A DNA stretch of 40,926 bases from Bdellovibrio sp. (GTDB lineage: Bacteria > Bdellovibrionota > Bacteriovoracia > Bacteriovoracales > Bacteriovoracaceae): assembly GCA_020720455.1 (NCBI GenBank), contig DYOQ01000005.1, positions 1 to 40,926 on the forward strand. The letters run 5' to 3'. A program made the translations under genes and the position numbers. The notes under the pieces are model-generated. The model saw only the letters and a list, made by a program, of their open reading frames with translations, was not told where the DNA came from and searched no databases. How positions within the stretch are numbered: position 1 is the stretch's first letter; every line of letters starts with the position of its first letter. Positions 6,805 to 22,868 of this stretch are shown here, in pieces.

Positions 6805-6810
6805 AAAAAT

Positions 6811-7260: not shown

Positions 7261-7658
7261 TGAACATCGGGAAAAAACATTTTCCAATTCTTTTTTTTTT
7301 ACTTGCTGACATCGCTCTTTTCTACTCCATTTATAAGTATAACGATCAAACAAATGTGCTTGTCCCAAGTAGCTTTTTTCCAACAGGACTAGATAAAAAA
7401 TTCGCTGAAGTTTTATGGAACCAGTCACTCGTTATTGGCCTCGTCTCGTTATACCTAATCCAAATTTTCGCATACATTATGTTAACCAAAGAAAATAAAA
7501 TTGCCATCAGGCATACTAATTTCTGGAGGGCCCTTGCCCCTTTTTTGGCAATCCTCATAACAACTAGTGGTGCTCTGAATAGCAACTACTGGTTTCTCCT
7601 CACCCTCCTTACAATACCTGCCTATTTAAATATTAGTCGGTGGATTCACCGCACGTGA
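7260..7658 (+). CDS. small integral membrane protein
   Basis: A 132-residue protein with about four hydrophobic segments: residues 8-24 (FPILFFLLADIALFY), 57-75, 90-105 and 108-122. A short basic C-terminus (SRWIHRT) follows. No family is recognised. Its ATG overlaps the smpB stop by one base, so it is probably translated from the same mRNA. Its 3' end overlaps the convergent lipoprotein gene by 33 bases, leaving no room for a terminator between them. Confidence 0.65.
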   Translation: MNIGKKHFPILFFLLADIALFYSIYKYNDQTNVLVPSSFFPTGLDKKFAEVLWNQSLVIGLVSLYLIQIFAYIMLTKENKIAIRHTNFWRALAPFLAILITTSGALNSNYWFLLTLLTIPAYLNISRWIHRT

Positions 7659-9455
7659 GCAATCAGGGTTTGCTGGATCAAATACAGGATATGCTGGAAC
7701 TGTCGGCGGATAACATTTACTATCGATACAATCACCATACGTTGGAACATTGTAACAGCGAACCGCACATGTAATCTTATTAGTTTCTGAATCGATTCCT
7801 GTTTTTACGATCATGCAAGTTGATACATTCTCTCTCTGGCACCACTCTTTAGCGATACAACTTTGGCCAGGAGATTTTGAGCAAGTAACAGGGTATTCAT
7901 CACCATCATCCCACGCCATATGAACACCACAAGTACCAAGACTTGTATTACAACAGAGTGAGACACAATCATAATCGCTCGAGCAACTCTCTCCAATTCC
8001 TTGATTACCAGATGGTTCATCATCGCCCATACAAGCAGAGACTATGTTTTTACTCAAACAGTGTTTATTATAACAACACTCACTACTTCCACACTCATTG
8101 GCCCCATGGCAACTTTTCATCGAATTAACAATTAGCTCATTACCTTGACTATCCTTCTTACTCGCTCTTGTCAGCTGAAGTTTTAGTTCATTAGTTTCAG
8201 ATATTTTAGAAAAACTAGTTCCACTTTTTTCTAAAATTTCAATTGTGGCCGTTACGTTGCAAGAACCAAGAGATTTTTCAGGATCATCGTGACTACTCCA
8301 TAACGCTCTAACAGTGCAACCATCAACATAGTTACTAATTCCTCCGCCACTAGCAGTAAACGTTCGCACACCAAACGGCGTAGTCGAACCTAGATATGTT
8401 ACCCCATCTTTTAAATCAATTTTACCAGTTCGAGGAAAAAGAAGCGATCCGTACTCAGCACTACCGACGGCCGCCGTTTTAAAAATACCTTTTGATCCAA
8501 AAATTGCGCTAGCTTTAATTTGCCATCCACTGCTAGTATCAAGCCGTAGGTACGGCCCATTATATACATATGTTCCGAAATCGACAAATGTAGCAATCTC
8601 CCCACCATATAACGTTGTAGGTCCTGAAATCGTTACGGCACCACTACCACCAAGTGAGGTTATAAGATCAGATTTTTTTTTGCTATCAGGAAGACATGGC
8701 CATCTATCACTCGCTCCATTTCTACCTTCAGCTTCAAAGGGGACTGCTGCTAAAAAATCTATAGCTGGAGCGTTTGAAACATGAGTATTAAAAGAACGAT
8801 CCGTAATTTTAGCATAACTATACAAACAACGGTCTGTTGCTTGATCACATTTTCCGTTATTATCACTATCAATAAATGTTGAATCATCTGAAAGATTTAA
8901 CCCTCTACAGTAGAGGGTAGAATCCAAGGCATCTGATGCAGGCACCAGATCTTCAATTCCATCATTGTTGCTATCATACTCTCCATAATCGTATAGTTGA
9001 TATAAATTTCTAACCTCATTAAGCTGGCCGCTTGTCATATCTATCATCAACATGTCGTAGGTAACTCTAGGAACAACCCCATTTGGTATTCCAACTGTTG
9101 CAGGAAAAACCATCTCAGCTTTATCTTTGCCAAAGCTAAATTTCACATACACAAATTTTGATTTAAGAGAGGCAACATTTAGAGCGTGGAGGTAAATCCA
9201 ACCTTTATAATTTTTAGGAATTGAAACTTTCGCTTTAACTTTACCATCTATCGGATCAAGAATGCCTCTTAACTCAGCTCTAGCAGGAACAATTGTTGCG
9301 ATAGGAGTTGGTGCTGGTGTAGAGGTCGGTGTTACTATAGATTCACTCCCGCGAGATGATTTATTACTTGTGCTCTTATTTCTAGTTTGCCCAACATCAA
9401 CACAGGATGCGAGAACTACAAATATAACCAAAGTTTGAAAAATGAACTTTTTCAC
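7626..9455 (-). CDS. large Cys-rich surface lipoprotein
   Basis: A 609-residue protein starting at GTG, with a lipoprotein signal whose lipobox LASC places the lipidated Cys at residue 18. A Ser/Thr/Pro-rich linker follows (SIVTPTSTPAPTP). A beta-rich domain then contains two Asp/Asn calcium-loop-like motifs, DSNNDGIEDL and DSDNNGKCD, resembling thrombospondin type-3 or EF-hand loops. The last third is very Cys-rich (CHGANECGSSECC, CSSDYDCVSLCC), suggesting small disulfide-knotted modules. It has no Asp at +2 after the Cys, so outer-membrane placement is plausible. An adhesive or structural surface role is inference. No enzymatic motif was seen. Confidence 0.75.
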   Translation of the reverse strand: MKKFIFQTLVIFVVLASCVDVGQTRNKSTSNKSSRGSESIVTPTSTPAPTPIATIVPARAELRGILDPIDGKVKAKVSIPKNYKGWIYLHALNVASLKSKFVYVKFSFGKDKAEMVFPATVGIPNGVVPRVTYDMLMIDMTSGQLNEVRNLYQLYDYGEYDSNNDGIEDLVPASDALDSTLYCRGLNLSDDSTFIDSDNNGKCDQATDRCLYSYAKITDRSFNTHVSNAPAIDFLAAVPFEAEGRNGASDRWPCLPDSKKKSDLITSLGGSGAVTISGPTTLYGGEIATFVDFGTYVYNGPYLRLDTSSGWQIKASAIFGSKGIFKTAAVGSAEYGSLLFPRTGKIDLKDGVTYLGSTTPFGVRTFTASGGGISNYVDGCTVRALWSSHDDPEKSLGSCNVTATIEILEKSGTSFSKISETNELKLQLTRASKKDSQGNELIVNSMKSCHGANECGSSECCYNKHCLSKNIVSACMGDDEPSGNQGIGESCSSDYDCVSLCCNTSLGTCGVHMAWDDGDEYPVTCSKSPGQSCIAKEWCQRENVSTCMIVKTGIDSETNKITCAVRCYNVPTYGDCIDSKCYPPTVPAYPVFDPANPDCSRAVNPPTNI

Positions 9456-9659
9456 TCTCCACCTCTACTCTATTCTCACATAGATTAATTATCTTTTATT
9501 CTGTAACATACACTGACACGTGCTTACAGCTGGTTATGGCAAAAATAACAGTAAAATACATAGCTATTATAGAACTATAGTGTGAACAAATCTAGGCAGT
9601 TTCAACCACCATATTTTCTCAATTTTTCTTTATTTTTCTTTATGTCAGCAATAACTAAG

Positions 9660-9688
9660 TTGACTTTCAAAACTCCTAGCGTTTCAAT
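9660..9688 (+). promoter_or_regulatory. probable promoter of the aldolase gene
   Basis: TTGACT (9660-9665) and TTCAAT (9683-9688) have a 17-base spacer and lie 26 bases upstream of the ATG at 9715; TTAGGAGAA supplies the ribosome site. The -35 is one mismatch from consensus and the -10 two. Confidence 0.45.
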
Positions 9689-9714
9689 TACTTAATCTAA
9701 CTTAGGAGAATTAC

Positions 9715-10728
9715 ATGGCCACACATTACAAGGAATTAGGATTAGTTAACACCAAAGAGATGTTTAAAAAAGCTGTAGATGGGAGATTTGCAATCCCAGC
9801 TTATAACTTCAACAACATGGAACAGCTTCAAGCGATCGTTATGGCATGTGCCGAATCTGACTCACCATTTATCCTTCAGGTAAGTAGTGGCGCCAGAAAA
9901 TATGCCAATCAGACGCTTTTGCGCTATATGGCCCAAGGGGCTGCTGAAATGTTAAAAGAGTTAAATCCACACCTAAAATTTGCTCTTCACCTTGACCACG
10001 GTGATACACTTGAACTTTGTAAATCATGTATTGAAACAGGATTTTCATCAGTCATGATCGATGGGTCTCACCACTCATACGAAGAGAATATCAAGCTAAC
10101 AAAACAAGTCGTCGAGTACGCACATAAGTTTGATGTTACCGTTGAGGGAGAACTTGGAGTTTTGGCCGGTATCGAAGATGAGGTAGTTGCAGAGAAATCT
10201 TCATATACTCGTCCTGAAGAGGTTGAAGATTTTGTTAAAAGAACTGGTGTTGACTCTCTTGCCATATCAATCGGTACAAGCCATGGAGCAACTAAATTTA
10301 AACCTGATCAATGTACTAAAAATAAAGATGGCATTTTAGTTCCACCGCCACTCAAGTTTGAAATTCTAGAAGAGATTGAAAGGAGAATTCCAGGATTCCC
10401 AATTGTTCTTCATGGTTCCTCATCAGTTGTTCCAAAATATGTTGAGATGATAAACTCAAATGGTGGAGCGCTTAAAGATGCGGTTGGTATTCCAGAAGAA
10501 CAGTTAAGAAAAGCGGCCGCAAGTGCAGTTTGCAAAATTAATATCGACTCTGATGGCCGACTAGCAATGACTGGTGCCATTAGAAAAATGTTCAAGGAAA
10601 AACCTTCAGAATTTGACCCGAGAAAATATTTAGGGCCAGCTCGAGATGAACTAAAGGCAATGATTATTGAGAAAAATAAAAACGTTCTTGGTTCAGCTGG
10701 AAAAGGGGCCTTGATTTTTAAAAAGTAG
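9715..10728 (+). CDS. fba: class II fructose-bisphosphate aldolase
   Basis: A 337-residue zinc-dependent class II aldolase, converting fructose 1,6-bisphosphate to DHAP and glyceraldehyde 3-phosphate in glycolysis and back in gluconeogenesis. Seen: AYNFNN near the N-terminus (29-34), LHLDHGD with metal ligand His and catalytic Asp (His92, Asp94, His95), the GELG segment (about 146-149), ISIGTSHGA, and the phosphate-binding loop LHGSSS followed by INIDSD. Length is typical for the longer subtype. It has its own promoter, a good ribosome site (TAGGAGAA) and a strong hairpin after the stop, so it is probably monocistronic and well expressed. Confidence 0.95.
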   Translation: MATHYKELGLVNTKEMFKKAVDGRFAIPAYNFNNMEQLQAIVMACAESDSPFILQVSSGARKYANQTLLRYMAQGAAEMLKELNPHLKFALHLDHGDTLELCKSCIETGFSSVMIDGSHHSYEENIKLTKQVVEYAHKFDVTVEGELGVLAGIEDEVVAEKSSYTRPEEVEDFVKRTGVDSLAISIGTSHGATKFKPDQCTKNKDGILVPPPLKFEILEEIERRIPGFPIVLHGSSSVVPKYVEMINSNGGALKDAVGIPEEQLRKAAASAVCKINIDSDGRLAMTGAIRKMFKEKPSEFDPRKYLGPARDELKAMIIEKNKNVLGSAGKGALIFKK

Positions 10729-10741
10729 GCCGCACAATCAC

Positions 10742-10779
10742 AAGACAAGTGTATATTTTTTTATATACTTGTCTTGTGG
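10742..10779. terminator. strong intrinsic terminator between aldolase and ATPase genes
   Basis: ACAAGACAAGTGTATA pairs with TATATACTTGTCTTGT across a run of T residues, giving a 15-16 bp stem with one G-T wobble. It lies just after the aldolase stop codon and just before the convergent ATPase stop, so it could serve both strands. Confidence 0.65.
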
Positions 10780-11907
10780 TTATGGTAAGTCAAGCTCCTG
10801 GCAAAATTTTATAAATGGCAAAACGCGGACTCCATCTCTACTTAAGTAATCTTTAGTTCCCATATGAACTTGATACCAGCTTGGTATTGCGACTCTATCT
10901 TTAAAGTATAAAATCGATTTTGAAACAGCAGCTTCACCAGTTTTGCACTCGACAGCAAATAGTGGCTTCTTGTTTTTCAAAACAACAAAATCAACCTCTC
11001 TATGTAAAGTATCTCGCAAATAAGATAACGTCATTTTCTCACCTTCGCTATCTTCAAGAAAATTACAATATTTCAACAGTGAAGAAGCCACTAAATTTTC
11101 AAAACGAGCGCCGTTACTTTCAACCTCACTCCAATCCCAAAAATATAGTTTAGGACTCTTTTTTATTGCTTTAATTTTTTGAGCACAATATGGATAAACT
11201 CGATATACGTAATAAATCTTTTCAAGAATATCAATCCAACTAGCAACTGTTTTTTGTGTAACCTGAAGATCTTCTTCTAACGATTTAACCGAGAGCAATG
11301 ATCCGACCCTAGAATTTAAAGATTCGGCCAATACCTCAAGCAACGAATAGTCTTTTAAATTTTCAAGGTTTTTTATATCATCATTTACAACTCTATAGAG
11401 TCGTTCTTTAATCCAAAGCTTATGCTCTTTATCAGATTGAGAAAAAAAAGGTTCAGGAAATCCACCAAATTTTAAAAGTGCGCTAAGATCACTACTGTTG
11501 GTAATCTTTAATTCATTAAGCGATAATGGGTGAAGGCGCAAATATCTATAACGGCCAAGTAGAGAATCCCCGCCTCTTCTATAATGATCTAATCTTGCAC
11601 TTCCTGTTATAAGATAATTTTGAGTACCACGATTTTTGTCAAAGAATCCCTTTACCAATGAACGCCAATGTTTATACTTATGAATTTCATCGAGAATTAC
11701 AAGCGGTGAAGATGGTAATATTCCATTTCTAATATTCGCTTTTGAATGAATGTCATCCCAATTAAGGTAACTCTGATTTTTAACATCTGGGTTATCCAAA
11801 AAACTCAAACAGAGTGTCGTTTTTCCTACCTGCCTTGGCCCACCAATAAAAACCATTCGTTTAACTAAAAACTCTTCTATGATCTTTAATAAATATCTTT
11901 GATGCAC
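10780..11907 (-). CDS. AAA_14/DUF4143-type ATPase (second copy)
   Basis: A 375-residue ATPase with the architecture of the one at 1631-2911 but clearly divergent. Walker A is GGPRQVGKTT (about 22-31), Walker B LVILDEIHKY (about 68-77), followed by LITGSARLD and the RYRYLRLHPLSLNE segment typical of the family. The DUF4143 tail has REVDFVV and AVECKTG, so here the PD-(D/E)xK-like residues D and E-x-K are intact, unlike the first copy. The GTG start has a good ribosome site (GGAGGGTGG). The upstream region carries a symmetric pair of palindromes. The neighbouring aldolase offers no functional clue. Confidence 0.88.
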   Translation of the reverse strand: MHQRYLLKIIEEFLVKRMVFIGGPRQVGKTTLCLSFLDNPDVKNQSYLNWDDIHSKANIRNGILPSSPLVILDEIHKYKHWRSLVKGFFDKNRGTQNYLITGSARLDHYRRGGDSLLGRYRYLRLHPLSLNELKITNSSDLSALLKFGGFPEPFFSQSDKEHKLWIKERLYRVVNDDIKNLENLKDYSLLEVLAESLNSRVGSLLSVKSLEEDLQVTQKTVASWIDILEKIYYVYRVYPYCAQKIKAIKKSPKLYFWDWSEVESNGARFENLVASSLLKYCNFLEDSEGEKMTLSYLRDTLHREVDFVVLKNKKPLFAVECKTGEAAVSKSILYFKDRVAIPSWYQVHMGTKDYLSRDGVRVLPFIKFCQELDLP

Positions 11908-11926
11908 AAACCACCCTCCAGCTCTA

Positions 11927-11996
11927 TTGGTATTTTTTTGGAGTCAACTCCATTATATTCATTATTTTTCTGGAGTCAACTCCAATAAAATACCAA
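11927..11996. promoter_or_regulatory. 70-bp symmetric repeat upstream of the second DUF4143 ATPase
   Basis: Two identical 14-base near-palindromes TGGAGTCAACTCCA lie at 11939-11952 and 11971-11984, with centres 32 bp apart. They are enclosed by TTGGTATTTT (11927-11936) and its exact reverse complement AAAATACCAA (11987-11996), and everything is symmetric about 11961.5. The block lies 20-90 bases upstream of the GTG start. The architecture matches the paired palindromes of the first ATPase although the sequence differs, so an operator pair is the simplest reading. Confidence 0.7.
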
Positions 11997-12233
11997 CAAC
12001 CGCTGATACGCCACTGTCCTAACTGTAAGAAAGCAAGATCGGAAGCTTTGGATTTTTTAGCAAGAGAGACTCCTCATTTATCCTATCTTTTTTACAAAAT
12101 TTTTAAAAAAAAGACTACAGTGCTCAGCGTTGTGGTAAATAGGGGTACTTTATTAACCGTCCTTTGAACTCAAGTGGAGAATAAACACAACAGTTTTGGG
12201 ACAATATCACATTAAGGCAAATGGAGATAATTT
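11997..12233. other. intergenic leader before the biosynthetic island
   Basis: No gene is supported here. The plus strand holds a start-less open frame (about 11991-12167) encoding RHCPNCKKARSEA, which superficially resembles a transposase zinc ribbon; this is too weak to call. The rest is AT-rich leader ending in ATGGAGATAATTT, the ribosome site of the gene at 12234. Confidence 0.35.
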
Positions 12234-13847
12234 ATGAAAATGAACACTAAAATTAAAATATTAATGACCAGTATTCTTTGTATGTTATTGCCATATATGG
12301 CTTCGGCAAATTCTGTTCAAGATATTGTGAACAACATAGAACAATTTCAATTTGATAACAAGTGTATGAATGAAACAATTTCAAAATACATGCAAATACA
12401 AAAAACATATATTAACTTAGATCGAAAAAAATCCAACCAATCAAAGCTAGTAATGCTTAAATATAAAATGGAAGTATTTAATTATTGGTTTTCCCAAAAT
12501 ATTATTGAAAATATTGATCAACTAGCAAGCGATGATAACCTTAACCTTCAAAATCTATTTGATTCGTTTCCCTTTATTTTAAAAGAAAAGCAAGCAAAAC
12601 GATTAGGTCTCACGATTTCAAAAGATGCCCCAAAGAAGTTTTTAGACGTAAAAACGTTAGAGGGTACACAGTGGTCTCAATTTATCAGTTGGAAAGATTT
12701 AGATTTAGCCACAAACTATTCTTCAAATACCGCTCAGGCAACAAACTCAGAAGAGAGTGTTTACTATCATGGTGTAGAATTTCAAACAGGAGATGTGATT
12801 ATTAGCGATACGAACACGTATGGCTATGAAATAGCGGCTTCAACAAGAGATACGGTTCAAACCGGCAACCATTCAGCTATCTTTGTATTAATGAAAGATG
12901 GAGATAAGTCTATTCCAACCGTGTTTGACATGCACGCTGATGGAATTAGGGCAACACCTCTTTCGCATTATTTGCATGAAAAAATCAATTCTTACGTCGA
13001 GATATATCGCTTAAATGAACATGAAAAAATGATGCTTTCAAATAATTGGAAAAGCAGGATTCGTAAATATTTTGAAAGCAATCTAGCAAAACAACAATCG
13101 TATCGGTTTGACTTCACTGCAAGCGCAGAAAATAATGACCAACGAAAACTTACATGTGCAGAATTAGTTTTGTTGGCATTAGAGGCCGGAGGAATGACAG
13201 CACCCTTTACTAAATTGACGAACACAACCGATGCAGCATTGAAAATGATAAAAAGTTTTGGAACATTTAGTGGAAAATATCTTGCGCCAGCCGATTTTGT
13301 GTACGATGGCCGCTTTAAAATGGTCGGCTATTTTGACATGCTGAACGTGAAAAAAAATCTGCTCATTAAACTAAATAGTGTTATTCTGGCCGAGGTAATT
13401 CAAAATCAAACCATTAACACACAAACAGTTTTAGAAAAAATTAAAACACACGTAAAACTAATTAGTGCCATGACTAATCCAAAATCTTTTATGGGAAAGT
13501 TATTAATTGCCTTGAGTGGAGTCAATACCACCTCTTTCCCAGAAGGTGAGCCGACCCTAATCGCATTAAATTTATTTTTTGAAGAAGAAGTCACTAAATC
13601 GATATCAGCATGCTTGGGGGAGGTGTCACACTTAGTTACAGACAATAATAGCACCGAAAATGAAGCTACCTTAGATTTTTTGCCATGCTATTACCATTTT
13701 GCACCAATTTTAGAAAACCTTACTCCCAAATTTAATGTTAAGGATTTTTTGTTTAACAGCGAAAATTCTCGCTATATGAAGATGGCAATGAAGGATCACT
13801 TGGAATATTTTAACAACACACTAGGTACTGCAAATGAATATAAATAG
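12234..13847 (+). CDS. exported YiiX/C92-type permuted papain-like protein
   Basis: A 537-residue protein with a signal peptide (hydrophobic core ILMTSILCMLLPYMASA, 9-25). A central domain matches the permuted papain-like amidase/peptidase pattern of the YaeF/YiiX (C92) group: FQTGDVIIS (183-191), the His-bearing GNHSAIFV with His213, and the Cys-bearing KLTCAELV with Cys308. In this circularly permuted fold His precedes Cys. Flanking N-terminal (26-170) and C-terminal (330-537) parts are helical and unassigned. Members of this fold can hydrolyse amide or thioester bonds of lipids, so an acyl-amide substrate from the island is an attractive guess, not a demonstration. GGAGA supports the start. 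It overlaps the next gene by 14 bases. Confidence 0.75.
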   Translation: MKMNTKIKILMTSILCMLLPYMASANSVQDIVNNIEQFQFDNKCMNETISKYMQIQKTYINLDRKKSNQSKLVMLKYKMEVFNYWFSQNIIENIDQLASDDNLNLQNLFDSFPFILKEKQAKRLGLTISKDAPKKFLDVKTLEGTQWSQFISWKDLDLATNYSSNTAQATNSEESVYYHGVEFQTGDVIISDTNTYGYEIAASTRDTVQTGNHSAIFVLMKDGDKSIPTVFDMHADGIRATPLSHYLHEKINSYVEIYRLNEHEKMMLSNNWKSRIRKYFESNLAKQQSYRFDFTASAENNDQRKLTCAELVLLALEAGGMTAPFTKLTNTTDAALKMIKSFGTFSGKYLAPADFVYDGRFKMVGYFDMLNVKKNLLIKLNSVILAEVIQNQTINTQTVLEKIKTHVKLISAMTNPKSFMGKLLIALSGVNTTSFPEGEPTLIALNLFFEEEVTKSISACLGEVSHLVTDNNSTENEATLDFLPCYYHFAPILENLTPKFNVKDFLFNSENSRYMKMAMKDHLEYFNNTLGTANEYK

Positions 13848-15360
13848 TAATTTAACAACGCCACATGTTTTGTCTAAAGAGTTAAAAAATGCTCTTAACT
13901 TATATTCTAAAAATATTCTTATTAGTGATGTTTCAGTTAAATTATCTGGAACAAAAATAAAAAAAATAGTTAAACCCATCATCCAAAGCATTGAACAAGC
14001 AACATCAGCAGGGGACGTTGTTGGAGTTTCTTTGCCACATGGAATAACACAGGCCTTAGCTATAATTGCGGTAATTTTAAGTAATCGAGTTCCTATTATA
14101 TTTAAAGAGAATGATACTTTTGATATTATTTCTCAAAAAGAAATGAGTCTTTTACTTACATCGTGCGATGATTCAAGATTTTTAATGATATCAAAAAGTG
14201 ACACAAATCATGGTGTAATTCAATGGGTATCACAAAATGACATTGAGGTGAGCTTAAAAATCAACAAACAAATTCAAACCTACAACAATCTGCCATCAGA
14301 TGTCGGTATGATCCTTTACACATCAGGTTCTACGGGAAAATCCCATGGAGTCATGATACCAGCAGACGGTACAACCTTTCTTGCCAATTCCCTAAAAAAT
14401 GAATTTTCACTTGACCAGCAAACAACTTCAACCGTAATACTTCCACTCTCTCACACTATGTGTATCAATACACTTTTCTTTCCTACAATATTATCTGGTG
14501 GAAATTCTTGGTTTGCTCCAACATTATCAAATATCGGTAGTACATATAGGAATATATTAGATAGCAATGGACACAACATTGCTTTAATTAGCGACTTACT
14601 CACATACATGAATCAAGAAAAAATTTTAAGAAACCTCCCACCTGCAACAAGTATTAAAACGTTAACTCTCTCTGGTGGTATGATTTCGGAATCCGATATT
14701 GATATTGCGACAACCCTTTTTCCTAATGCTCAGATATACATTGGGTATGGATTAACAGAAGCAACCCGCATTGCAATAACATGCATCCAAAATAGTTCTA
14801 TAGCAAAAAAATTCAAACTAGAATATCGACTATTAGAAGGTGTTGATGTTCAAATCAGGGATGAACAAAATGATATATGTAAAGCTGGAGAAGCTGGCAA
14901 TATATTTATAAGAGCAAAAAGTGTAATGAAAGGGTATTACAATGAAGATACAACATCTATTGATCAACAGGGATATCTTAAATCAGGCGACAGTGGAAGC
15001 TTATCTCATAATGGATTGCTCTCTATTTATGGAAGAACCGATGGGATAATTAAGATTAACGGAGAAAGAATTTCAACTGCATATATAGAAAACATTGCAA
15101 TGAACCATGAAAAAATAAAACAAAATTATAAAAAAGCGGCTTGCATATTGGCCAAAAGAAATGGCCGAAGTATAATATACATATTTTTAGAAACTCTTCG
15201 TGGCGAAAATTCATCATCAAATCTTGCCATGAAAGAATTAAAACAGGCGTTAAAAAAGAAAATTAAACAGCGTATTGAAATCGTAGAAAAGTGTCATTTT
15301 CCAAAATCTAGTAACGGAAAAATTATGCTGAATGAACTTTCAAAAAGCTTATGCAAGTAG
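13834..15360 (+). CDS. acyl-AMP ligase (acyl-CoA/acyl-ACP synthetase)
   Basis: A 508-residue ANL-superfamily adenylating enzyme. Seen: the phosphate-binding loop LYTSGSTGKSHG (161-172), the A5-type motif YIGYGLTEA (about 302-310), the A7/A8 region YLKSGDSGSL followed by YGRTDGIIKINGERIS, and the C-terminal catalytic Lys in SSNGKIM. It should activate a carboxylic acid as an acyl-adenylate and transfer it to CoA or to a carrier protein. With a dedicated ACP in the same island, loading a starter acid or recycling a free acyl chain is likely. It overlaps the upstream C92-type gene by 14 bases and meets the convergent enoyl reductase gene with a 12-base overlap. Confidence 0.88.
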   Translation: MNINSNLTTPHVLSKELKNALNLYSKNILISDVSVKLSGTKIKKIVKPIIQSIEQATSAGDVVGVSLPHGITQALAIIAVILSNRVPIIFKENDTFDIISQKEMSLLLTSCDDSRFLMISKSDTNHGVIQWVSQNDIEVSLKINKQIQTYNNLPSDVGMILYTSGSTGKSHGVMIPADGTTFLANSLKNEFSLDQQTTSTVILPLSHTMCINTLFFPTILSGGNSWFAPTLSNIGSTYRNILDSNGHNIALISDLLTYMNQEKILRNLPPATSIKTLTLSGGMISESDIDIATTLFPNAQIYIGYGLTEATRIAITCIQNSSIAKKFKLEYRLLEGVDVQIRDEQNDICKAGEAGNIFIRAKSVMKGYYNEDTTSIDQQGYLKSGDSGSLSHNGLLSIYGRTDGIIKINGERISTAYIENIAMNHEKIKQNYKKAACILAKRNGRSIIYIFLETLRGENSSSNLAMKELKQALKKKIKQRIEIVEKCHFPKSSNGKIMLNELSKSLCK

Positions 15361-16089
15361 CCCCTTTCCTCCATCAATATAGAAAGTTTGACCCGTAAAC
15401 TGATTGTGATTAACACAAACAAGAAAACTAATTAGTTCGGCCACCTCTTCAACGGTAGTCAATCTTCCGGTCGGAGTTAACGATATAGCTGCGCTCACTC
15501 GCTGTTCACTATTTGGAAAATTTTTAACAGCTTCAGTCTCAATCATACCTGGACAGACGAGATTTACCCCTATTTTTCGATGCGCCAACTCTACTGCGTA
15601 ATGCCTAAAAAGCGCATCTAGAGCACCTTTACTACTTCCGACAGCAGCATATTGTTGCAAATACCGACTACTTCCCGCTGAAGTGAGTCCTATGATTTTT
15701 GCGTTCTGAGATACCTTTGGTAAAAGTCTCATCAAAAGCTCGTGAAATGAAAAAACATTCACCTCATATGTCCATCTTAAATGTTTGGTTTTTAATTCAT
15801 CGACTAATCGATGAACTCCGCTTGCAGCACAATGAACTATACCGTGTATCGCCTCGACTGTATCTAATATTTGGTTAGTAGTTTGAATCATTACCTCTGG
15901 AATTGTTAAGTCACCTCTTACACAAATTAACTTACCTGAATACTGTTGAGATATATCAATTAGCTTCTGTGCTTCATCCAAATTTCTTGCGTAGATGGCA
16001 TATACAGTATGTCCCTTTGATAAGAAATCTATGGTTATCGCTCTACCGATCCCCCTTGTTCCACCAGTTATTACGTATGTATTTTTCAT
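15349..16089 (-). CDS. FabL-like enoyl-[ACP] reductase (SDR family)
   Basis: A 246-residue short-chain dehydrogenase. The cofactor loop GGTRGIG (9-15) is intact. The usual Y-x3-K is absent; instead Tyr147 and Lys154 form Y-x6-K (QYAAVGSSKGALDAL), the signature of enoyl-ACP reductases. The context SSRYLQQY, AVELAHRKIGVN and the ending DGGKGLL resemble the FabL subgroup known from Bacillus. It should reduce the trans-2-enoyl-ACP made by the dehydratase, using NAD(P)H. Its ATG overlaps the stop of the ketoreductase gene (ATGA). It is the last gene of the minus-strand unit. A simple FabG label would miss this motif. Confidence 0.8.
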   Translation of the reverse strand: MKNTYVITGGTRGIGRAITIDFLSKGHTVYAIYARNLDEAQKLIDISQQYSGKLICVRGDLTIPEVMIQTTNQILDTVEAIHGIVHCAASGVHRLVDELKTKHLRWTYEVNVFSFHELLMRLLPKVSQNAKIIGLTSAGSSRYLQQYAAVGSSKGALDALFRHYAVELAHRKIGVNLVCPGMIETEAVKNFPNSEQRVSAAISLTPTGRLTTVEEVAELISFLVCVNHNQFTGQTFYIDGGKGLLA

Positions 16090-16850
16090 ACAGAGTTATC
16101 TCCAAGAGAGCGACCACCGTCAATGGTAATTACAGTTCCAGTTATATAACTAGCTCGTTCAGAACACAAATAATGCACTAAATCTCCAATTTCTTCAGGT
16201 GTACCGGCACGCCCTACAGGTATTTTTTCTCGAAGTAACTTATGTTCTCTTAGATTATTAACCATATCTTGAGTCATAGGTGTTTCTATTAATCCAGGGG
16301 CCAAAGCGTTTACAGTAATACCACGGTGGGCCACTTCCATTGCTAAGCATTTTGTAAATCCTTCAATTCCTGATTTCACAGTAGCATACCCAACTTGGCC
16401 TTTTTTAAAATATTTAGCACTCACTGATGAGAAATTAATAACCCTACCAAACTTATCTTTATACATTTCTTTAAGACACAAATGAGTCAGCGCTAGCGTA
16501 GTAGTTAAATGCTCTTGAATCATTTGATCTTGGACAGAAAAATCCATATTTAAAAAAAGTCCATCTCTAATCTTGCCAGCACTATTAATTAAGATTGAAG
16601 GTGCTTTAGCAAATTGGTCACACACTTCGCCGTAAAGTTCTTTTGCCAACAGATATCCTTTTAACTCTTTTCGATACAGCTCAACATGACATTCTGGATT
16701 TTTAACCTGTATCTGTTTTTTTGCATTGATTGCTTTATCATCATTGCTAGCATACACGAGAGCAAGATCATACTCTTGAGCAATTTTATCTGCACACGCA
16801 AATCCTAAGCCAGAAGTCCCTCCCGTAATCAACGCTAATTTTTTTGACAT
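16086..16850 (-). CDS. FabG-like 3-oxoacyl-[ACP] reductase
   Basis: A 254-residue SDR enzyme. Seen: GGTSGLGFA cofactor loop (10-18), NSAGKIRDGLF (89-99) corresponding to the NAG motif with the FabG-like RD, catalytic Ser in FSSVSA (about 141-142), and Y155-x3-K159 in GYATVKSG. The tail APGLIETPMT and the ending TGTVITIDGG are typical FabG. It should convert 3-oxoacyl-ACP to 3-hydroxyacyl-ACP with NADPH. The ATG begins immediately after the ketosynthase stop (TAGATG) and its stop overlaps the enoyl reductase start, so the genes are translated together. Confidence 0.88.
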   Translation of the reverse strand: MSKKLALITGGTSGLGFACADKIAQEYDLALVYASNDDKAINAKKQIQVKNPECHVELYRKELKGYLLAKELYGEVCDQFAKAPSILINSAGKIRDGLFLNMDFSVQDQMIQEHLTTTLALTHLCLKEMYKDKFGRVINFSSVSAKYFKKGQVGYATVKSGIEGFTKCLAMEVAHRGITVNALAPGLIETPMTQDMVNNLREHKLLREKIPVGRAGTPEEIGDLVHYLCSERASYITGTVITIDGGRSLGDNSV

Positions 16851-18119
16851 CTATACCTCATTTTTTTTCAAAATCACACATACATTTTGACCACCAAAAC
16901 CAATATTATTATTTAGTACATAATTAATTGCTTTATCACGAGATACCAATGGCACATAATCTAAATCACAATCTGGATCAGTGTTGTGTAAATTAATTGT
17001 TGGAGCAACTTTTTGTTGTTGTATCATTTGTACACATGCAATCGTTTCCAATATTCCTGCAGCAACAGTTGAGTGGCCAATTTCTGATTTTAAAGAACTA
17101 ACAGACAAGGAATAAGCGTGCTTTCCAAACAGCTCGCGAATGGCCATCGTTTCAACCTTATCATTTAATAACGTTGATGTTCCATGTGCACTAATATAAT
17201 CGATTTGATTTTTGTCAATTTCAGCATCCTTAATTGCATTTTCCATAGCAATTTTTAGGCAGATCCCATCATCACGAGGATCAGTTAATCTAAACGCGTC
17301 TGAAGTTATTCCATATCCGACAACTTCTGCCAAAATTAAATTACCAGATTTCTTCTGTGACTCTTCTGACTCCAAAAGTAAAATACCTGCTGCCTCACCT
17401 CTGACAAAACCACTTCTCGTTATATCAAACGGTCGACTAGCAGTACTTGGTTCTACTTCTGCTGTTGTTAAGGCCATCAACATGTGAAAATTCATCATAT
17501 TGGCCAATGTACATCTAGTATCAACCCCAGCAACCAACACCCTGTTCCACATACCAGATCTTACCCTATTAAAGCCTATTCCTAACGCCTGATTCCCTGT
17601 AGCACAAGCAGCATTGATACTGTAGATTTTCATAGGATCTAGATCTACTCCGTAATATGACTTAATGCTATCGATCAATAATTTATGACAGCCATCACCA
17701 TTAAGAAGATTAAAGTCAAATTTTTCAGCACACTTTTTTTTATATGCATCCTCAACAACCTCATATCCTGTTCCGTCCGGTGTTCCATAAACAAAAGCAT
17801 CTATTGAATCTACAGATTTTATCTTTTCAAAAATTTGCTCTAATGCTAGAAGAGTACAACGCCATGATCGCGACAACTCACCTGTTTCAGATAAACTTTC
17901 TACAATGTGTCTAGGTATATACTTAAACGTATCAAGTGAATCTTCAATAATACCAGCATAGGGTATTGGGAAATCTGAAGAAAAATCTCTAGTCCCTCTT
18001 AAGTTTTTAACTCCAGATTTTCCTTCAAACATATTTTTAGTGAATGTCTCAACATCACATCCCAACGACGACACCACACCACATGAAGTGATATAAACTT
18101 TTTTATGTAATGTGTTCAT
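16851..18119 (-). CDS. beta-ketoacyl-[ACP] synthase (FabF-type, catalytic)
   Basis: A 422-residue condensing enzyme with the complete Cys-His-His triad: Cys172 in NAACATG, His312 in AHGTSTLLND, and His349 in KSEIGHSTVAAG, plus the C-terminal gatekeeping loop NNNIGFGGQN. It should carry out decarboxylative Claisen condensation of malonyl-ACP onto an acyl chain. Just upstream in the same unit are the ACP and a half-length KS-like partner, so it may function as a KS/chain-length-factor heterodimer. One base separates it from the ACP stop. Sequence differs in places from housekeeping FabF (for example NDKVE after the first His motif, where FabF has NDxxE). Confidence 0.92.
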   Translation of the reverse strand: MNTLHKKVYITSCGVVSSLGCDVETFTKNMFEGKSGVKNLRGTRDFSSDFPIPYAGIIEDSLDTFKYIPRHIVESLSETGELSRSWRCTLLALEQIFEKIKSVDSIDAFVYGTPDGTGYEVVEDAYKKKCAEKFDFNLLNGDGCHKLLIDSIKSYYGVDLDPMKIYSINAACATGNQALGIGFNRVRSGMWNRVLVAGVDTRCTLANMMNFHMLMALTTAEVEPSTASRPFDITRSGFVRGEAAGILLLESEESQKKSGNLILAEVVGYGITSDAFRLTDPRDDGICLKIAMENAIKDAEIDKNQIDYISAHGTSTLLNDKVETMAIRELFGKHAYSLSVSSLKSEIGHSTVAAGILETIACVQMIQQQKVAPTINLHNTDPDCDLDYVPLVSRDKAINYVLNNNIGFGGQNVCVILKKNEV

Positions 18120-18120
18120 T

Positions 18121-18375
18121 TTAATATTTTGTCAAAAAAAGAACCAAATCACCGACAGTCATCTTTTGTCCTACTGGCAACTCTTTACGCAACTTCGACA
18201 AATCAACTTCTTTGTTAACAATTTTTTCTAATTCTGAAGCTATATCTAACATATCTATACTTTCAGCACCTAGATCATCGATTATACTACTCTCCCTTTT
18301 TACCTCATCAACATCCAAATCTAATACATCCGCAATCGCATTCTTAATCTCTTGAAATAATTTTTCATCGTTCAC
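18121..18375 (-). CDS. acyl carrier protein
   Basis: An 84-residue ACP with the phosphopantetheine site DDLGAESID (Ser39) and the usual acidic four-helix pattern. The start is the GTG at 18375, decided by the strong AGGAGG seven bases upstream; the longer open frame with an extra N-terminal MISLVSQRRNI has no comparable site. It overlaps the end of the upstream KS-like gene by 11 bases. The ES-ID around the modified Ser, in place of the DSLD of primary-metabolism AcpP, and its place among KS, KR and ER genes mark it as a pathway-specific carrier. Confidence 0.9.
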   Translation of the reverse strand: MNDEKLFQEIKNAIADVLDLDVDEVKRESSIIDDLGAESIDMLDIASELEKIVNKEVDLSKLRKELPVGQKMTVGDLVLFLTKY

Positions 18376-19117
18376 AATATTCCTCCTCTGTGAAACCAAA
18401 CTTATCAATTAACTGGCAAGATATTCCATAATTGTATTTTAATTTTGGGGCCCTACAAAGAGTTGATCTATCCTCACCTCTTTGCAATAAAACGGCCGCT
18501 GCACCTTCAGAAATAGGAAGACCACCTTCAGTCATGTTCTTTAACAAATTTAGTCCATCCTCATCACTAAAAGCAGAAACGACCAATGCATAATCAATCT
18601 GATTGGTTAACAGATCAAATTCAGCTTGCTCTAGTGCATGACTTGGCCCAAATTTTGTATGAGTAAAAACATACAATGGACCTCTTACGTTATACGATAT
18701 TCCAAGCTGAGCTGCTGCTAAATTTGGAAGTTGCTTAAGGTACATTTTAGGATTTCTTTCTCTTTTGAAATTTACATGAAACTCATTTCGATCTTTGGCC
18801 AAAATTTTCTCGACGATATTATAATCAACCGATCCATTTTCTATAGCGCAATAAATCCCTGTCCGAAACGGATTTTTACCAATAATTTCCAAACAGTCAT
18901 CTGGCATTAATGAGCATGCGAAGTGCAATAAACAACAAGCTCTAGAGCATGACCTACTGGCCGACCCAAACTTCCCCAATAGTTGTTTATTACTGTAGGC
19001 AAAACTTCTGACATTTTCAATATGTATTTCAGGTGAAAAACAACGAATACTGAATAACTTATACTCTAAATTATCACCACAAGGATACGCAAAATTTTTC
19101 CATAAAACATTGAACAT
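18365..19117 (-). CDS. half-length ketosynthase-like protein (chain-length-factor type)
   Basis: About 250 residues from the ATG at 19117, chosen over a TTG eleven codons earlier because AGAGGG sits correctly upstream. The segment VRGPLYVFTHTKFG (145-158) aligns by eye with the active-site region GPxxxxxTACSSG of ketosynthases, with Thr154 in place of the catalytic Cys; the downstream helix and DYALVVSAFSDED, GAAAVLL match the N-terminal KS half. The C-terminal half with both catalytic His is missing. This resembles the PF13723 'ketoacyl synthase chain length factor' proteins of aryl polyene clusters, which pair with a full KS. First gene of the minus unit; overlaps the ACP by 11 bases. Confidence 0.72.
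   Translation of the reverse strand: MFNVLWKNFAYPCGDNLEYKLFSIRCFSPEIHIENVRSFAYSNKQLLGKFGSASRSCSRACCLLHFACSLMPDDCLEIIGKNPFRTGIYCAIENGSVDYNIVEKILAKDRNEFHVNFKRERNPKMYLKQLPNLAAAQLGISYNVRGPLYVFTHTKFGPSHALEQAEFDLLTNQIDYALVVSAFSDEDGLNLLKNMTEGGLPISEGAAAVLLQRGEDRSTLCRAPKLKYNYGISCQLIDKFGFTEEEYCER
18382..18387 (-). promoter_or_regulatory. strong ribosome binding site fixing the ACP start
   Basis: The minus strand reads AGGAGG followed by AATATT and GTG. This is among the best Shine-Dalgarno matches in the island, fits the need for a highly expressed carrier protein, and selects the GTG at 18375 over earlier in-frame codons. Confidence 0.75.
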
Positions 19118-19139
19118 TAGACCCTCTTCTTTAATAAAT

Positions 19140-19167
19140 ATTCTAATCAAATCGTGAATATTTTAAA
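19140..19167 (-). promoter_or_regulatory. possible promoter of the minus-strand biosynthetic unit
   Basis: On the minus strand TTTAAA (19167-19162) and TAGAAT (19145-19140) are separated by 16 bases and lie some 23 bases upstream of the ATG at 19117. The 115-base gap to the divergent unit (19118-19232) must contain both promoters. No palindromic operator was seen in it. Confidence 0.3.
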
Positions 19168-19232
19168 CAGAGAAAATTTTGCCTATTTTTTTTAATGGAC
19201 AAACGCTTAACACATGAAATAATCACTGTAAT

Positions 19233-19664
19233 ATGTTAAATGAATTTAATTTCCACCTAACCATAAGATCTGAACATATTGACAAATCAAGTCATGTTAA
19301 TAATGCGTGCTACTTGTCCTTCTTTGAAGCGGCCCGCTGGAGATGTTTTGACGGAACAATTTTTGATGAATCTAAAATACATACATTAGGATTCGCTCCA
19401 GTCCTAATAGACTGCCAACTAAAATATAGGAAAGAACTTGTACTCGATGACAACATATCTATCAAAACAAGCATCATCCAAATAGAAAAAAAAATGATCA
19501 TTCACATTAATCAAGTAATATATAAACAAAATGGAGAAAAATCGTGTTCGGCAAAATTAAGACACGGAATACTCAACTTAAAAACCAGAAATTTAACCGA
19601 AATTCCTGATAATTGGTTAAATATTTTACTTAAGGAGAAATCAAATGCTATGGTACTTACTTGA
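19233..19664 (+). CDS. hotdog-fold acyl thioesterase (4HBT/YbgC-like)
   Basis: A 143-residue hotdog protein. RSEHIDKSSHVNNACYLSFFEAARW (12-36) carries the family motif D-x3-HVNN with the expected catalytic Asp17 and the conserved His21. The remaining beta strands (LDCQLKYRKELVLDD-type, read here as IDCQLKYRKELVLDD) are typical of 4-hydroxybenzoyl-CoA thioesterase relatives. It probably hydrolyses an acyl-ACP or acyl-CoA, either to release product or to edit stalled chains. It is the first gene of the divergent plus-strand unit and overlaps the dehydratase gene by 20 bases. No clear ribosome site precedes the ATG. Confidence 0.82.
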   Translation: MLNEFNFHLTIRSEHIDKSSHVNNACYLSFFEAARWRCFDGTIFDESKIHTLGFAPVLIDCQLKYRKELVLDDNISIKTSIIQIEKKMIIHINQVIYKQNGEKSCSAKLRHGILNLKTRNLTEIPDNWLNILLKEKSNAMVLT

Positions 19665-20085
19665 TCGGATTACTGAATGTGATCCTGGTAAAACAATTAC
19701 CGCAGTCAAATGTTTTACTCGCTCGGAGATAATATTTCAACATCATTTTATTAATTATCCTGTTGTTCCCGGTGTGTTGCAGATTGAAATGATAGCACAA
19801 GCTGGCGGTAAATGCATAAAGGTCTTCGATGGTAAACTCGCCCCAGCTTTGGCCAGTGTAAAAAAGGCAAAATTTTATCAGAGTATATTTCCTGGTGACA
19901 AATGTGAAGTACGAGCAGAAATTATGCAATTAACGTCACAGTATGCAAAGTGTACTGGCATAGTATCAGTAGATGGTAAAAAAAAATCTAGTGCTGAAAT
20001 TTTATATTCTTTTCTAGCACCAGAAATTGTAGCAAAACTAGTTCCCGACGAAATAGTAGAAGAGTGGAAAGCAAAAATTAAATAA
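19645..20085 (+). CDS. FabZ-like 3-hydroxyacyl-[ACP] dehydratase
   Basis: A 146-residue hotdog dehydratase. HHFINYPVVPGVLQIEMIAQ (33-52) corresponds to the FabZ signature HFPGxPxxPGVLQIEAMAQ, retaining the catalytic His34 and Glu48, although PG after HF is replaced by IN. ASVKKAKFYQSIFPGD matches the second conserved FabZ block. It should dehydrate 3-hydroxyacyl-ACP to the trans-2-enoyl form, linking the FabG-like and FabL-like enzymes of the minus unit. AAGGAG supports the start. Its stop lies 13 bases before the amidotransferase ATG. Confidence 0.85.
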   Translation: MLWYLLDRITECDPGKTITAVKCFTRSEIIFQHHFINYPVVPGVLQIEMIAQAGGKCIKVFDGKLAPALASVKKAKFYQSIFPGDKCEVRAEIMQLTSQYAKCTGIVSVDGKKKSSAEILYSFLAPEIVAKLVPDEIVEEWKAKIK

Positions 20086-20098
20086 CTTGGGAAGATAT

Positions 20099-22069
20099 AT
20101 GTGTGGTATCTGGGGTGAATTTGGCATAAACGTTGAGTTTGACCAAAATAAGCTTAAAAATATAGTTAGCTCACTTTTTCATCGTGGCCCAGATGGATAC
20201 GGATATTTTTCAATTCAACACTGTGCTCTCGTCCACACAAGATTAAGCATAATTGACCTCGTTTCTGGTGGACAACCATTGACATCCTATGACAACAACA
20301 TGATTGGGATTGTTAACGGTGAAATTTATGACTACAAAAAAACTAAAACCGAACTAGAAGCACAAAATATCAGCTTTAAAACTTGCTCAGATAGTGAGGT
20401 CTTGTTAAATCTTTTTACAAAAAAAGGAAAAACATCGTTAAAAGATGTTCACGGAGAATATGCTTATATTTTTTTCGACAAAAAAAATAAAAAGGTTTTT
20501 TTTGGGAGAGACCCTTTTGGAGTAAAACCACTATACATATTTAGAAAAAACAACTCCATTATTCTTGCCAGCGAAATCAAAGCAATTTTATCAAATGAAT
20601 CGTTTTCTATCAACGAAAAATACTTAACAAACTATATCTGCCGAATTACCACACCACTCGAAACACTTTTTCAAAACATACAACACGTTTATCCCGGTTA
20701 CGTATATGAATACGATATCATCAAAAATAAAATATCAGAAACACCATTAGGATCACTGCAGTTCAACCGGCCAAAGCTTAAACAATCAAAAGAAGAATGT
20801 CTATTAGAGCTTGAAGCAACTTTAAAAAATAGCATAAAACGAAGACTAGTTGCAGATGTTGAGGTAGGAGCATATTTAAGTGGTGGAGTTGATAGCTCCC
20901 TTATATTGGCCTTAATGTGCGACCAAGGTGCAAGGCCAAAAGCATTTACCGTAGGCTTTGAAGACAATGAGTTCGATGAATCAAATAAAGCAATTACTAT
21001 TGCAAAACATCTTGGTGTCAAACATGAAATAGTAATGCTAAATAAAAACAATTTTTTTGATTATCTAGAAAAATCAATCATTGCTTTTGAATCGCCGATT
21101 GCCAACGTCCACGGAGCAGCTAAAAACTTACTCGGCCATTTAGCATCAAAACATTTAAAAGTTGTACTATCTGGTGAGGGCGCCGATGAACTATTTGCTG
21201 GATATGCACATCACCGATTATCTAAGCTAGAACAGTTCTTAAGAAATTATCCAGATACAAAACGAGAACAGATAATTAATTATTTTATTACCACAAAAGC
21301 TGGGATAGGAAGCAAATATTTATGCAGTAAACGTTATCCCTTTAAATCTGAGGTTCGAGAAATATTCACCAACAACTATCCCAATCAATTCAGACGAATT
21401 ATCGACGAAAAAAATGCGAAATACCTTTTTGGTAGAACAATTAATCAATCAATTCATAATAATCTAAAAAAAATTAAGTTACTGGAAAATATGGACAACA
21501 TAAGCATTACTGACAACAATTTCAATTATCACATATGGCTTGACATACGATTAGACCTTTTACATTATATTTTAGCAAATTTAGGTGACAGACAAGAAAT
21601 GTCAAATTCGATTGAAGGTAGAACACCTTTTCTAGATCTAGAAGTGGCAAGACTGGCCCTAACCTATTCTCCTCACATTTTAATTAATGGTCTAACTGAA
21701 AAATATATTTTAAAACAAATGTGCACGAAATATTTACCAATTAAAAACGGAAATGAACCTAAGCATGCTTTTTTTGCTCCAGACAACTATTTTAATACCA
21801 TAACAGGAAAAAAATTTTTGGAGAATCATGTGCATGATTCGAAAAAAATACTTGATTTTTTAAACTGGAATAAAATTGAGAAACTTTTTAAATACACCAA
21901 CCAGAACGATGCCGTAGATAGTAATGAAGTTAACACCTTAAAACTGACGCTTGCTTCAACGTCATATCTAGTTCAAGAAATATCTAAGCACTCATGCCAT
22001 AATAAAATAATAAATAATTCTCTGCCAACATCTATCATTAAAGGAGAACCTCATGTCTTTATATTATGA
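20099..22069 (+). CDS. asparagine synthetase-like glutamine amidotransferase (AsnB family)
   Basis: 656 residues. I start at the ATG at 20099, so that Met removal exposes Cys2 (MCGIWGEFG), the class II glutaminase nucleophile; GGGAAG precedes it. The glutaminase domain has HRGPDG, RLSIIDL and NGEIYDY. The synthetase domain has the PPi-loop LSGGVDSS (about 260-267), LSGEGADELFAGY and EGRTPFLD. The canonical reaction is ATP-dependent amidation of Asp to Asn with glutamine-derived ammonia. In pathway clusters family members amidate other carboxylates, and the fatty-acid context suggests that here. Coupled to the next gene by a 17-base overlap. A plain asparagine synthetase cannot be excluded. 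Confidence 0.88.
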   Translation: MCGIWGEFGINVEFDQNKLKNIVSSLFHRGPDGYGYFSIQHCALVHTRLSIIDLVSGGQPLTSYDNNMIGIVNGEIYDYKKTKTELEAQNISFKTCSDSEVLLNLFTKKGKTSLKDVHGEYAYIFFDKKNKKVFFGRDPFGVKPLYIFRKNNSIILASEIKAILSNESFSINEKYLTNYICRITTPLETLFQNIQHVYPGYVYEYDIIKNKISETPLGSLQFNRPKLKQSKEECLLELEATLKNSIKRRLVADVEVGAYLSGGVDSSLILALMCDQGARPKAFTVGFEDNEFDESNKAITIAKHLGVKHEIVMLNKNNFFDYLEKSIIAFESPIANVHGAAKNLLGHLASKHLKVVLSGEGADELFAGYAHHRLSKLEQFLRNYPDTKREQIINYFITTKAGIGSKYLCSKRYPFKSEVREIFTNNYPNQFRRIIDEKNAKYLFGRTINQSIHNNLKKIKLLENMDNISITDNNFNYHIWLDIRLDLLHYILANLGDRQEMSNSIEGRTPFLDLEVARLALTYSPHILINGLTEKYILKQMCTKYLPIKNGNEPKHAFFAPDNYFNTITGKKFLENHVHDSKKILDFLNWNKIEKLFKYTNQNDAVDSNEVNTLKLTLASTSYLVQEISKHSCHNKIINNSLPTSIIKGEPHVFIL

Positions 22070-22868
22070 AACTATTGGTGACAGGAATTTACCTTTATTA
22101 GTGGCCGTACATGGATTAATGGGTGGTGTAGAGGAATTAAAATTTCTAGAATCTTTAGCTCAAAAGTTTCATATCATTTTTGTTGATTTTAATTATGAGT
22201 TAAAAAAGAAAAACATCGCTACGCGAGATTTAAAAACTGTTGATTACGATCATGGTTCTGACATGATAGCAGAGTTGCTACATAAATACTTCAATGGCCA
22301 ACAAGCTTATTTTTTTGGTTCCAGCTATGGCGGTAAAATTATTTTTGATTTCATGGCAAAGTTTTCAGATTTATATCTCGGAGGTGTTTTTGGTGATATT
22401 TCTCCAGCGCCTGCTGAAGATACTGAATTCTATAAACTTACATACAACGTAGTGCCCCAATTGGATATGACACAAAACTGGGCAAACTTAAAAAAACAAA
22501 TAAAAAAATTAGTGCCCAACAGAAATGCATATTCACTTTTAACAAGCCAAATCTATTATCCTAAAGTCGATGGCCCTGCCATTTGGCGAACAGGAATTCA
22601 TAAGCTAAATGAAGTTATGTCAGAATTACAAATTAATAATCAATGGACACTCTTAGATAAAATGACCCCTTCAAAAAACAAAAAAAACATTATTCTTGTA
22701 GCTGAAGATTTTAGTTCTATTTCTGCTCAATCTCTAAAACGATTACAAGAGAGTGGATTTTTCGAACTTATTATTGTTCCAAAATCTTCACATTTTATTA
22801 ATATCACTCATCATCAAGTTATACTAGACACACTTTTAACATTGATTAACACACCAACTTCGACATAA
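22053..22868 (+). CDS. alpha/beta hydrolase
   Basis: A 271-residue alpha/beta-hydrolase. The oxyanion-side motif VAVHGLMGG (17-25) and nucleophile elbow FFGSSYGG place Ser91 as the nucleophile; His247 in KSSHFIN is the likely catalytic His. It has no signal peptide, so it should be cytoplasmic. As last gene of the plus unit, overlapping the amidotransferase by 17 bases and preceded by AAGGAG, it may act as a releasing thioesterase or acyl-transfer enzyme for the island's product; this is inferred from position only. Other possibilities include an esterase or amidase. Confidence 0.8.
   Translation: MSLYYETIGDRNLPLLVAVHGLMGGVEELKFLESLAQKFHIIFVDFNYELKKKNIATRDLKTVDYDHGSDMIAELLHKYFNGQQAYFFGSSYGGKIIFDFMAKFSDLYLGGVFGDISPAPAEDTEFYKLTYNVVPQLDMTQNWANLKKQIKKLVPNRNAYSLLTSQIYYPKVDGPAIWRTGIHKLNEVMSELQINNQWTLLDKMTPSKNKKNIILVAEDFSSISAQSLKRLQESGFFELIIVPKSSHFINITHHQVILDTLLTLINTPTST

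Follow-up and report, generated by a model that had tools for sequence, protein, structure and literature searches.

We examined a 40,926-nucleotide stretch of a Bdellovibrio sp. genome (hereafter, the window) and found that positions 12234-22868 hold a compact cluster of eleven genes. Judging from the catalytic signatures and the conserved company of its members, the cluster probably encodes a dedicated, iterative and reducing type II acyl-chain synthase, akin to the highly reducing type II polyketide synthases (PKSs) and to fatty acid synthase (FAS). The locus lies on contig 56 of a 2.70-Mb assembly (92 contigs, 97% complete; G000 below). A preliminary description of this DNA had named eleven genes and their families, and Pfam and NCBIfam scans recovered all eleven open reading frames, with every family correctly typed. 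Literature searches, not extending to MIBiG or antiSMASH, returned no cluster with this gene set. Its features are as follows.

12234..13847, + strand: exported C92 (YaeF/YiiX-type, permuted papain-like) protein, 537 aa, with a signal-like N-terminal segment; PF05708, 29.4 bits (cut-off 27)
13834..15360, + strand: AMP-dependent acyl ligase (ANL), 508 aa; PF00501, E 6e-30
15349..16089, - strand: FabL-like enoyl-acyl carrier protein (ACP) reductase, a short-chain dehydrogenase/reductase (SDR), 246 aa; best NCBIfam model FabL, 193.9 bits (cut-off 328)
16086..16850, - strand: FabG-like ketoreductase (SDR), 254 aa; TIGR01830, 194.9 bits (cut-off 297.75)
16851..18119, - strand: FabF-like ketosynthase (KS), 422 aa; TIGR03150, 317.8 bits (cut-off 493.75)
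18121..18375, - strand: ACP, 84 aa; PF00550, E 1e-7; GTG start at 18375 with GAGGAGG upstream
18365..19117, - strand: half-size, non-catalytic KS partner resembling a chain-length factor (CLF), 250 aa; PF00109, E 0.0066, and PRK06519, E 1.9e-5, both below cut-off; ATG start at 19117
19118..19232, no strand: divergent intergenic region of 115 bp, presumed from its position between divergent genes to hold the promoters of both outward units
19233..19664, + strand: 4HBT (YbgC/FadM-like) thioesterase, 143 aa, accessory; PF13279, 61.8 bits
19645..20085, + strand: FabZ-like 3-hydroxyacyl-ACP dehydratase, 146 aa; PF07977, 55.1 bits; NCBIfam FabZ, 88.1 bits (cut-off 113)
20099..22069, + strand: AsnB-like glutamine-dependent amidotransferase, 656 aa; TIGR01536, 376.8 bits, above the cut-off of 267.1
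22053..22868, + strand: alpha/beta hydrolase (distantly MenH-like), 271 aa, likely to release the chain; PF12697, E 5e-4, below cut-off

The preliminary description had drawn three coupled units from overlaps and tiny gaps, and the packing of the genes bears this out. The C92 and AMP ligase genes (+ strand) overlap by 14 bp; the FabL-like, ketoreductase, KS, ACP and CLF genes (- strand, from low to high coordinate) are joined by gaps of at most 1 bp or overlaps of at most 11 bp; and in the thioesterase, dehydratase, AsnB and hydrolase unit (+ strand), the first two genes overlap by 20 bp, dehydratase and AsnB are 13 bp apart, and AsnB and hydrolase overlap by 17 bp. The AMP ligase and FabL-like genes meet tail to tail with a 12-bp overlap. 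The GTG start of the ACP gene, which overlaps the CLF stop, was assigned from the sequence and from homolog N termini, and AsnB was taken to start at ATG 20099 (MCGI...) rather than at an upstream TTG. At 34.2% GC the cluster is just below its flanks (36.1%), so that composition gives no strong sign of recent transfer.

The preliminary description had proposed looking for the gene neighborhood in relatives. Using the half-size CLF as a profile query against 369 Bdellovibrionota genomes, we obtained strong matches in eight (G000, G127, G128, G083, G159, G187, G367, and G368), which belong to three families (f1, f3, and f29), and the neighborhood is conserved among them. The cassette is therefore rare but conserved in Bdellovibrionota, with a patchy distribution. 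Its core consists of the AMP ligase, dehydratase, half-size CLF, ACP, KS, ketoreductase, FabL-like enoyl reductase and hydrolase, and since these eight genes recur together in related genomes, their association is not due to chance; in G083 the cluster is split over two short contigs, on which the AMP ligase and ketoreductase were not seen. The nearest named relatives by cluster are the Bdellovibrionales metagenome-assembled genomes RIFOXYD12_FULL_39_22 and RIFOXYC1_FULL_37_79, and the clusters of G128 (loci L018/L029) and G127 (L019) share ~50-86% protein identity with the window. Genes flanking the cluster in the window had no match in the flanking DNA examined around the L018/L029 and L019 clusters, so the conserved block ends at 12234 and 22868, the borders first proposed. 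All genes lie on one strand in the clusters of G159, G187, G367 and G368, the order in the last (L054) being AMP ligase, patatin-like protein, dehydratase, CLF, ACP, KS, ketoreductase, FabL, AsnB, hydrolase. A scan of genome contigs with the KS returned two close relatives only, so it says little about occurrence beyond the phylum, and tblastn of plasmids gave only FabF-type matches (~36%) with the KS and none with the contig-7 CLF.

Catalytic residues of the acyl-chain enzymes are largely kept across these clusters. The Cys-His-His triad of the KS (ACA(T/S)G Cys, AHGTST His, and IGH His) is intact wherever the sequence is complete, and in a tree a branch supported at 100/99 separates the cluster KSs from the rest. 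The ketoreductase keeps Y-x3-K (GYATVKSG) in seven clusters, and the FabL-like reductase has Y-x6-K, the motif given for FabL (PMC9260719), in all eight. Likewise kept are the HF...P.VPGVLQ.E motif of the dehydratase, including the FabZ His and Glu, the DLG(A/L)ESID Ser site of the ACP, the TSGS(T/S)G motif and C-terminal GK Lys of the AMP ligase (seven clusters), and the GxSxGGK Ser, an Asp and a C-terminal His of the hydrolase (all eight aligned rows). In G187 (L053:7053-9377), the AMP ligase is seemingly fused to a C-terminal phosphopantetheinyl transferase of the ACPS/Sfp type; this fusion, weakly scored (PF01648, E 4e-4, below cut-off), would fit a ligase acting on the ACP.

In the half-size partner, the column of the nucleophile Cys holds variable residues (K, Q, E, and others), and the stretch RxPKMYLxQLPNL is nearly invariant. 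A catalytic KS with a partner lacking the nucleophile Cys is the combination that marks highly reducing type II PKSs, and it is present here. The AlphaFold model of the partner, although of low confidence (predicted local distance difference test, pLDDT, 38), retrieves KS folds in a PDB structure search, the best match, to be taken with caution, being a KS/CLF chain of the ishigamide system (6kxd_B, E 5.7e-4). Neither the single partner sequence nor a profile found anything relevant in PDB sequence searches, and hhalign comparisons with E. coli ApeC or with a single FabF were not significant. The CLF of aryl polyene (APE) synthases is also about half the size of a KS, with one thiolase domain (PMC8358021), but no match to the ApeC family PF13723 was found at E 0.01 in the window partner or in the L055 and L058 partners, as compared with 225 bits for E. 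coli ApeC. Ketosynthase genes also occur at other Bdellovibrionota loci (L057 to L065), where several of them have a small CLF-like protein as neighbor and the gene content is unlike that of this cluster; related half-size CLFs beside other KS genes indicate that the partner belongs to a wider family.

The preliminary description had claimed a dedicated pathway rather than membrane lipid supply, and the remainder of the genome agrees. KS-C-domain proteins occur at three places. Contig 13 carries fabH-fabD-fabG-acp-fabF with glyA-, nrdR- and nusB-like neighbors (names from translations), contig 27 has fabZ between lpxD- and lpxA-type genes, and contig 38 encodes a FabK-like protein (317.6 bits, below the cut-off of 453.1) that is probably the main housekeeping enoyl reductase. 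Identity between cluster proteins and their FAS counterparts is just 22-32%, and the cluster is without fabD and fabH. Hence, neither of the two findings that the preliminary description had named as fatal to it, an unconserved neighborhood or a cluster that is the sole FAS set, was observed. Its mention of a duplicate FabL did not quite hold, as no second FabL/FabI-type gene was recognized among the SDR matches of the genome, not every one of which was read.

Two further acyl loci were noticed in the same genome. Locus L026 (G000:C7:1-19900) holds, at 105-2970 and 13798-17151, a second and unrelated type II set comprising a KS (429 aa), a CLF-like protein (361 aa), a FabZ-like protein, an ACP and an SDR; MMPL-type exporter, B12-radical-SAM-like and indolepyruvate-oxidoreductase-like genes lie near it. 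Locus L028 (G000:C12:56000-68000; 3749-12001), read by eye from translations, has two beta-ketoacyl-ACP synthase III-like proteins, an AMP ligase, SDRs, left-handed beta-helix proteins and a carboxyltransferase.

The AsnB-like protein had been taken in the preliminary description as a sign that the product ends as an amide. Its glutaminase and ATP-site residues (Cys1, Arg49, Asn74, Glu76, Asp98, SGG-DS, Glu348, Asp351, and Lys449) are kept, and it differs from E. coli AsnB at the acceptor-side positions Thr322 and Arg387, where the alignment is uncertain. As these two positions have a role in aspartate binding in E. coli AsnB, the difference is suggestive of an acceptor other than aspartate. 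Orthologs track the cassette: the subfamily is present in seven of the eight cluster genomes and lies inside the cluster in six, intact in G000, G128, G083, G368 and G159 and as a remnant in G127. In the remnant (L019:1319-1930), an in-frame internal deletion, reflecting either loss or an assembly error, cuts AsnB to 203 aa, so that the synthetase domain is gone and the glutaminase half is kept. The link is not constant: the G367 cluster has no AsnB and its ortholog is unlinked (G367:C3:23595-25538; L116:9596-11623), and the subfamily was not found in G187. AsnB, absent once, unlinked once and once deprived of its synthetase half, thus looks like a common tailoring step rather than part of the core. 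In a profile search of the 369 genomes, the five intact cluster copies scored 1113-1160 bits, values inflated by the profile having been built from those same copies, while the G367 copy, which was outside the profile, scored 791 and the best genome without the cluster 393. Amidation by AsnB is plausible. The OxyD enzyme of oxytetracycline biosynthesis is AsnB-like. Together with OxyP, it provides the malonamate with which a type II PKS starts its chain (PMC7749508), a likeness in design, with an amidotransferase working alongside a type II PKS.

The thioesterase and the C92 protein, counted as pathway members in the preliminary description, are present but are not core. The former occurs in two clusters only (window and L019) and the latter only in the window, L018/L029 and L019 clusters. 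His213 (TGNHSAIFV) and Cys308 (TC(A/T)ELV) are invariant in three C92 homologs and follow the permuted His...Cys order of Peptidase C92; the structure prediction was of low confidence (pLDDT 36) and the model was not used. In YiiX, a C92-family member, the pocket is occupied by a fatty acid (PMC3142127). A patatin-like protein replaces C92 in G083, G159, G367 and G368, where its gene adjoins, or lies close to, that of the ligase or dehydratase. Such genes were seen at L055:2544-3728, L056:7715-8971, L054 around 11094-12383, and L066:2-1099; two of the proteins were scored, one falling above and one below the Pfam cut-off, and the translations have signal-like N termini.

Taken together, these data suggest a six-step route. 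The AMP ligase would activate a carboxylic-acid starter and load it onto the cluster ACP. The KS and its half-size partner, if they pair, would then condense malonyl units, the partner helping to shape a chain-length pocket; since the cluster has no FabD, malonyl transfer would presumably fall to the housekeeping FabD of contig 13. Each beta-keto group would be processed by the Y-x3-K ketoreductase, the FabZ-like dehydratase and the Y-x6-K reductase, probably giving a fully reduced chain. The alpha/beta hydrolase would release the chain, possibly helped in some species by the 4HBT thioesterase, and AsnB, using glutamine and ATP, may amidate a carboxylate, either on the starter or on the completed chain. 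Finally, the product might be acted on outside the cytoplasm by an exported enzyme of lipid type, which is the C92 protein in the window and a patatin-like protein in most of the distant relatives.

Several points weigh against this interpretation. Assignment of the half-size CLF rests on sub-threshold profile matches, a low-confidence model (pLDDT 38) and position. The FabL-, FabG-, FabF- and FabZ-like proteins all score under the NCBIfam equivalog cut-offs, so their exact activities are not settled. One cluster genome has no AsnB, a second carries it outside the cluster, and the L019 copy is truncated. The window AsnB, which scores above the AsnB equivalog cut-off, is also the sole Asn_synthase-domain protein over cut-off in its genome, where AsnA was not searched. 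Furthermore, AsnRS is present (625 bits) and GatB was not detected, implying that free asparagine is needed. AsnB could therefore also feed asparagine synthesis, or do so instead of tailoring the chain; in the latter case it would simply be the asparagine synthetase of the cell, situated within the operon, with the acyl cassette as described but no AsnB-made amide on the product. We consider this unlikely, although it deserves serious thought. Among the 369 genomes, none without the cluster exceeds 393 bits for AsnB, and no AsnB match at E 1e-20 was found in 59 of 129 relatives; this cluster-restricted distribution argues against a role in asparagine supply. In addition, AsnB is embedded next to the enoyl reductase and hydrolase in distant operons, the L019 copy is without the synthetase half, and the positions of Thr322 and Arg387 are not conserved.

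The known systems closest in design differ from the proposed acyl-chain synthase in separate ways. APE clusters (ApeO-ApeC) likewise join a KS to a half-size, one-domain partner, with an AMP ligase loading the ACP, a ketoreductase, a FabZ-type dehydratase and a 4HBT thioesterase, so that the locus could be read as a diverged APE or xanthomonadin-type pigment cluster. This is improbable, as the partner is of another sequence family, BLAST of Ape proteins found counterparts only for the KS, ketoreductase, dehydratase, ACP, thioesterase and ligase (20-38% identity, some alignments partial), and positions 12234-22868 have one KS instead of two, lacking the second (ApeR) as well as methyltransferase, LolA-like, LolB-like, RND exporter and lysophospholipid acyltransferase genes. 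Moreover, the cluster adds AsnB and a conserved, predicted enoyl reductase that would remove the double bonds of a polyene. The ishigamide synthase (Iga11-Iga12), a highly reducing type II PKS, resembles the cluster in its stand-alone KS-CLF with reductive partners, and its CLF chain is the best match of the weak partner model; in contrast, its CLF is full-size and its product keeps conjugated double bonds, whereas the cluster adds an enoyl reductase and AsnB. In cispentacin and coronafacic acid systems, too, a KS works with a partner of reduced form, the small 'cyclization factor,' and with a loading enzyme (PMC10698177). A ring-forming system of this kind is quite doubtful here, since the matches to the AmcF (159.6 bits) and AmcE (28.5 bits) models are far below the cut-offs of 325 and 140 and weaker than those to FabF and FabZ, and both ketoreductase and enoyl reductase are present, as for linear chain growth. 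FabL (enoyl-ACP reductase III) is like the cluster reductase in being its best NCBIfam match and in its Y-x6-K motif, but the cluster protein stays under the equivalog cut-off and is not the housekeeping gene here. As for ordinary duplicated FAS genes serving membrane lipids, every activity of the elongation cycle (KS, ketoreductase, dehydratase, enoyl reductase, and ACP, as predicted) is represented, yet this explanation is highly improbable given the housekeeping set elsewhere, which includes the fabD and fabH that the cluster lacks, the patchy spread over 8 of 369 genomes, and the presence of a dead KS partner, AsnB and the AMP ligase.

More tentatively, and with rather less than even confidence, the clusters may represent a novel class of reducing type II acyl synthases, confined so far to Bdellovibrionota and possessing a half-size KS partner family and an AsnB subfamily of their own, that make an amide-bearing lipid or acyl amide that is finished outside the cytoplasm by interchangeable C92 or patatin-like enzymes. 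The specialized metabolism of predatory and Bdellovibrio-like bacteria has been little explored, and work on type II PKSs has mostly concerned aromatic or polyene products. The conserved gene set provides a search rule (half-size CLF, Y-x6-K SDR, and this AsnB subfamily), and the compact operon, in which enoyl reduction and a glutamine-dependent amidotransferase accompany the KS and its half-size partner, would be a tractable system for learning how one-domain partners set chain length. The operon also points to a novel acyl amide or lipid as its product.

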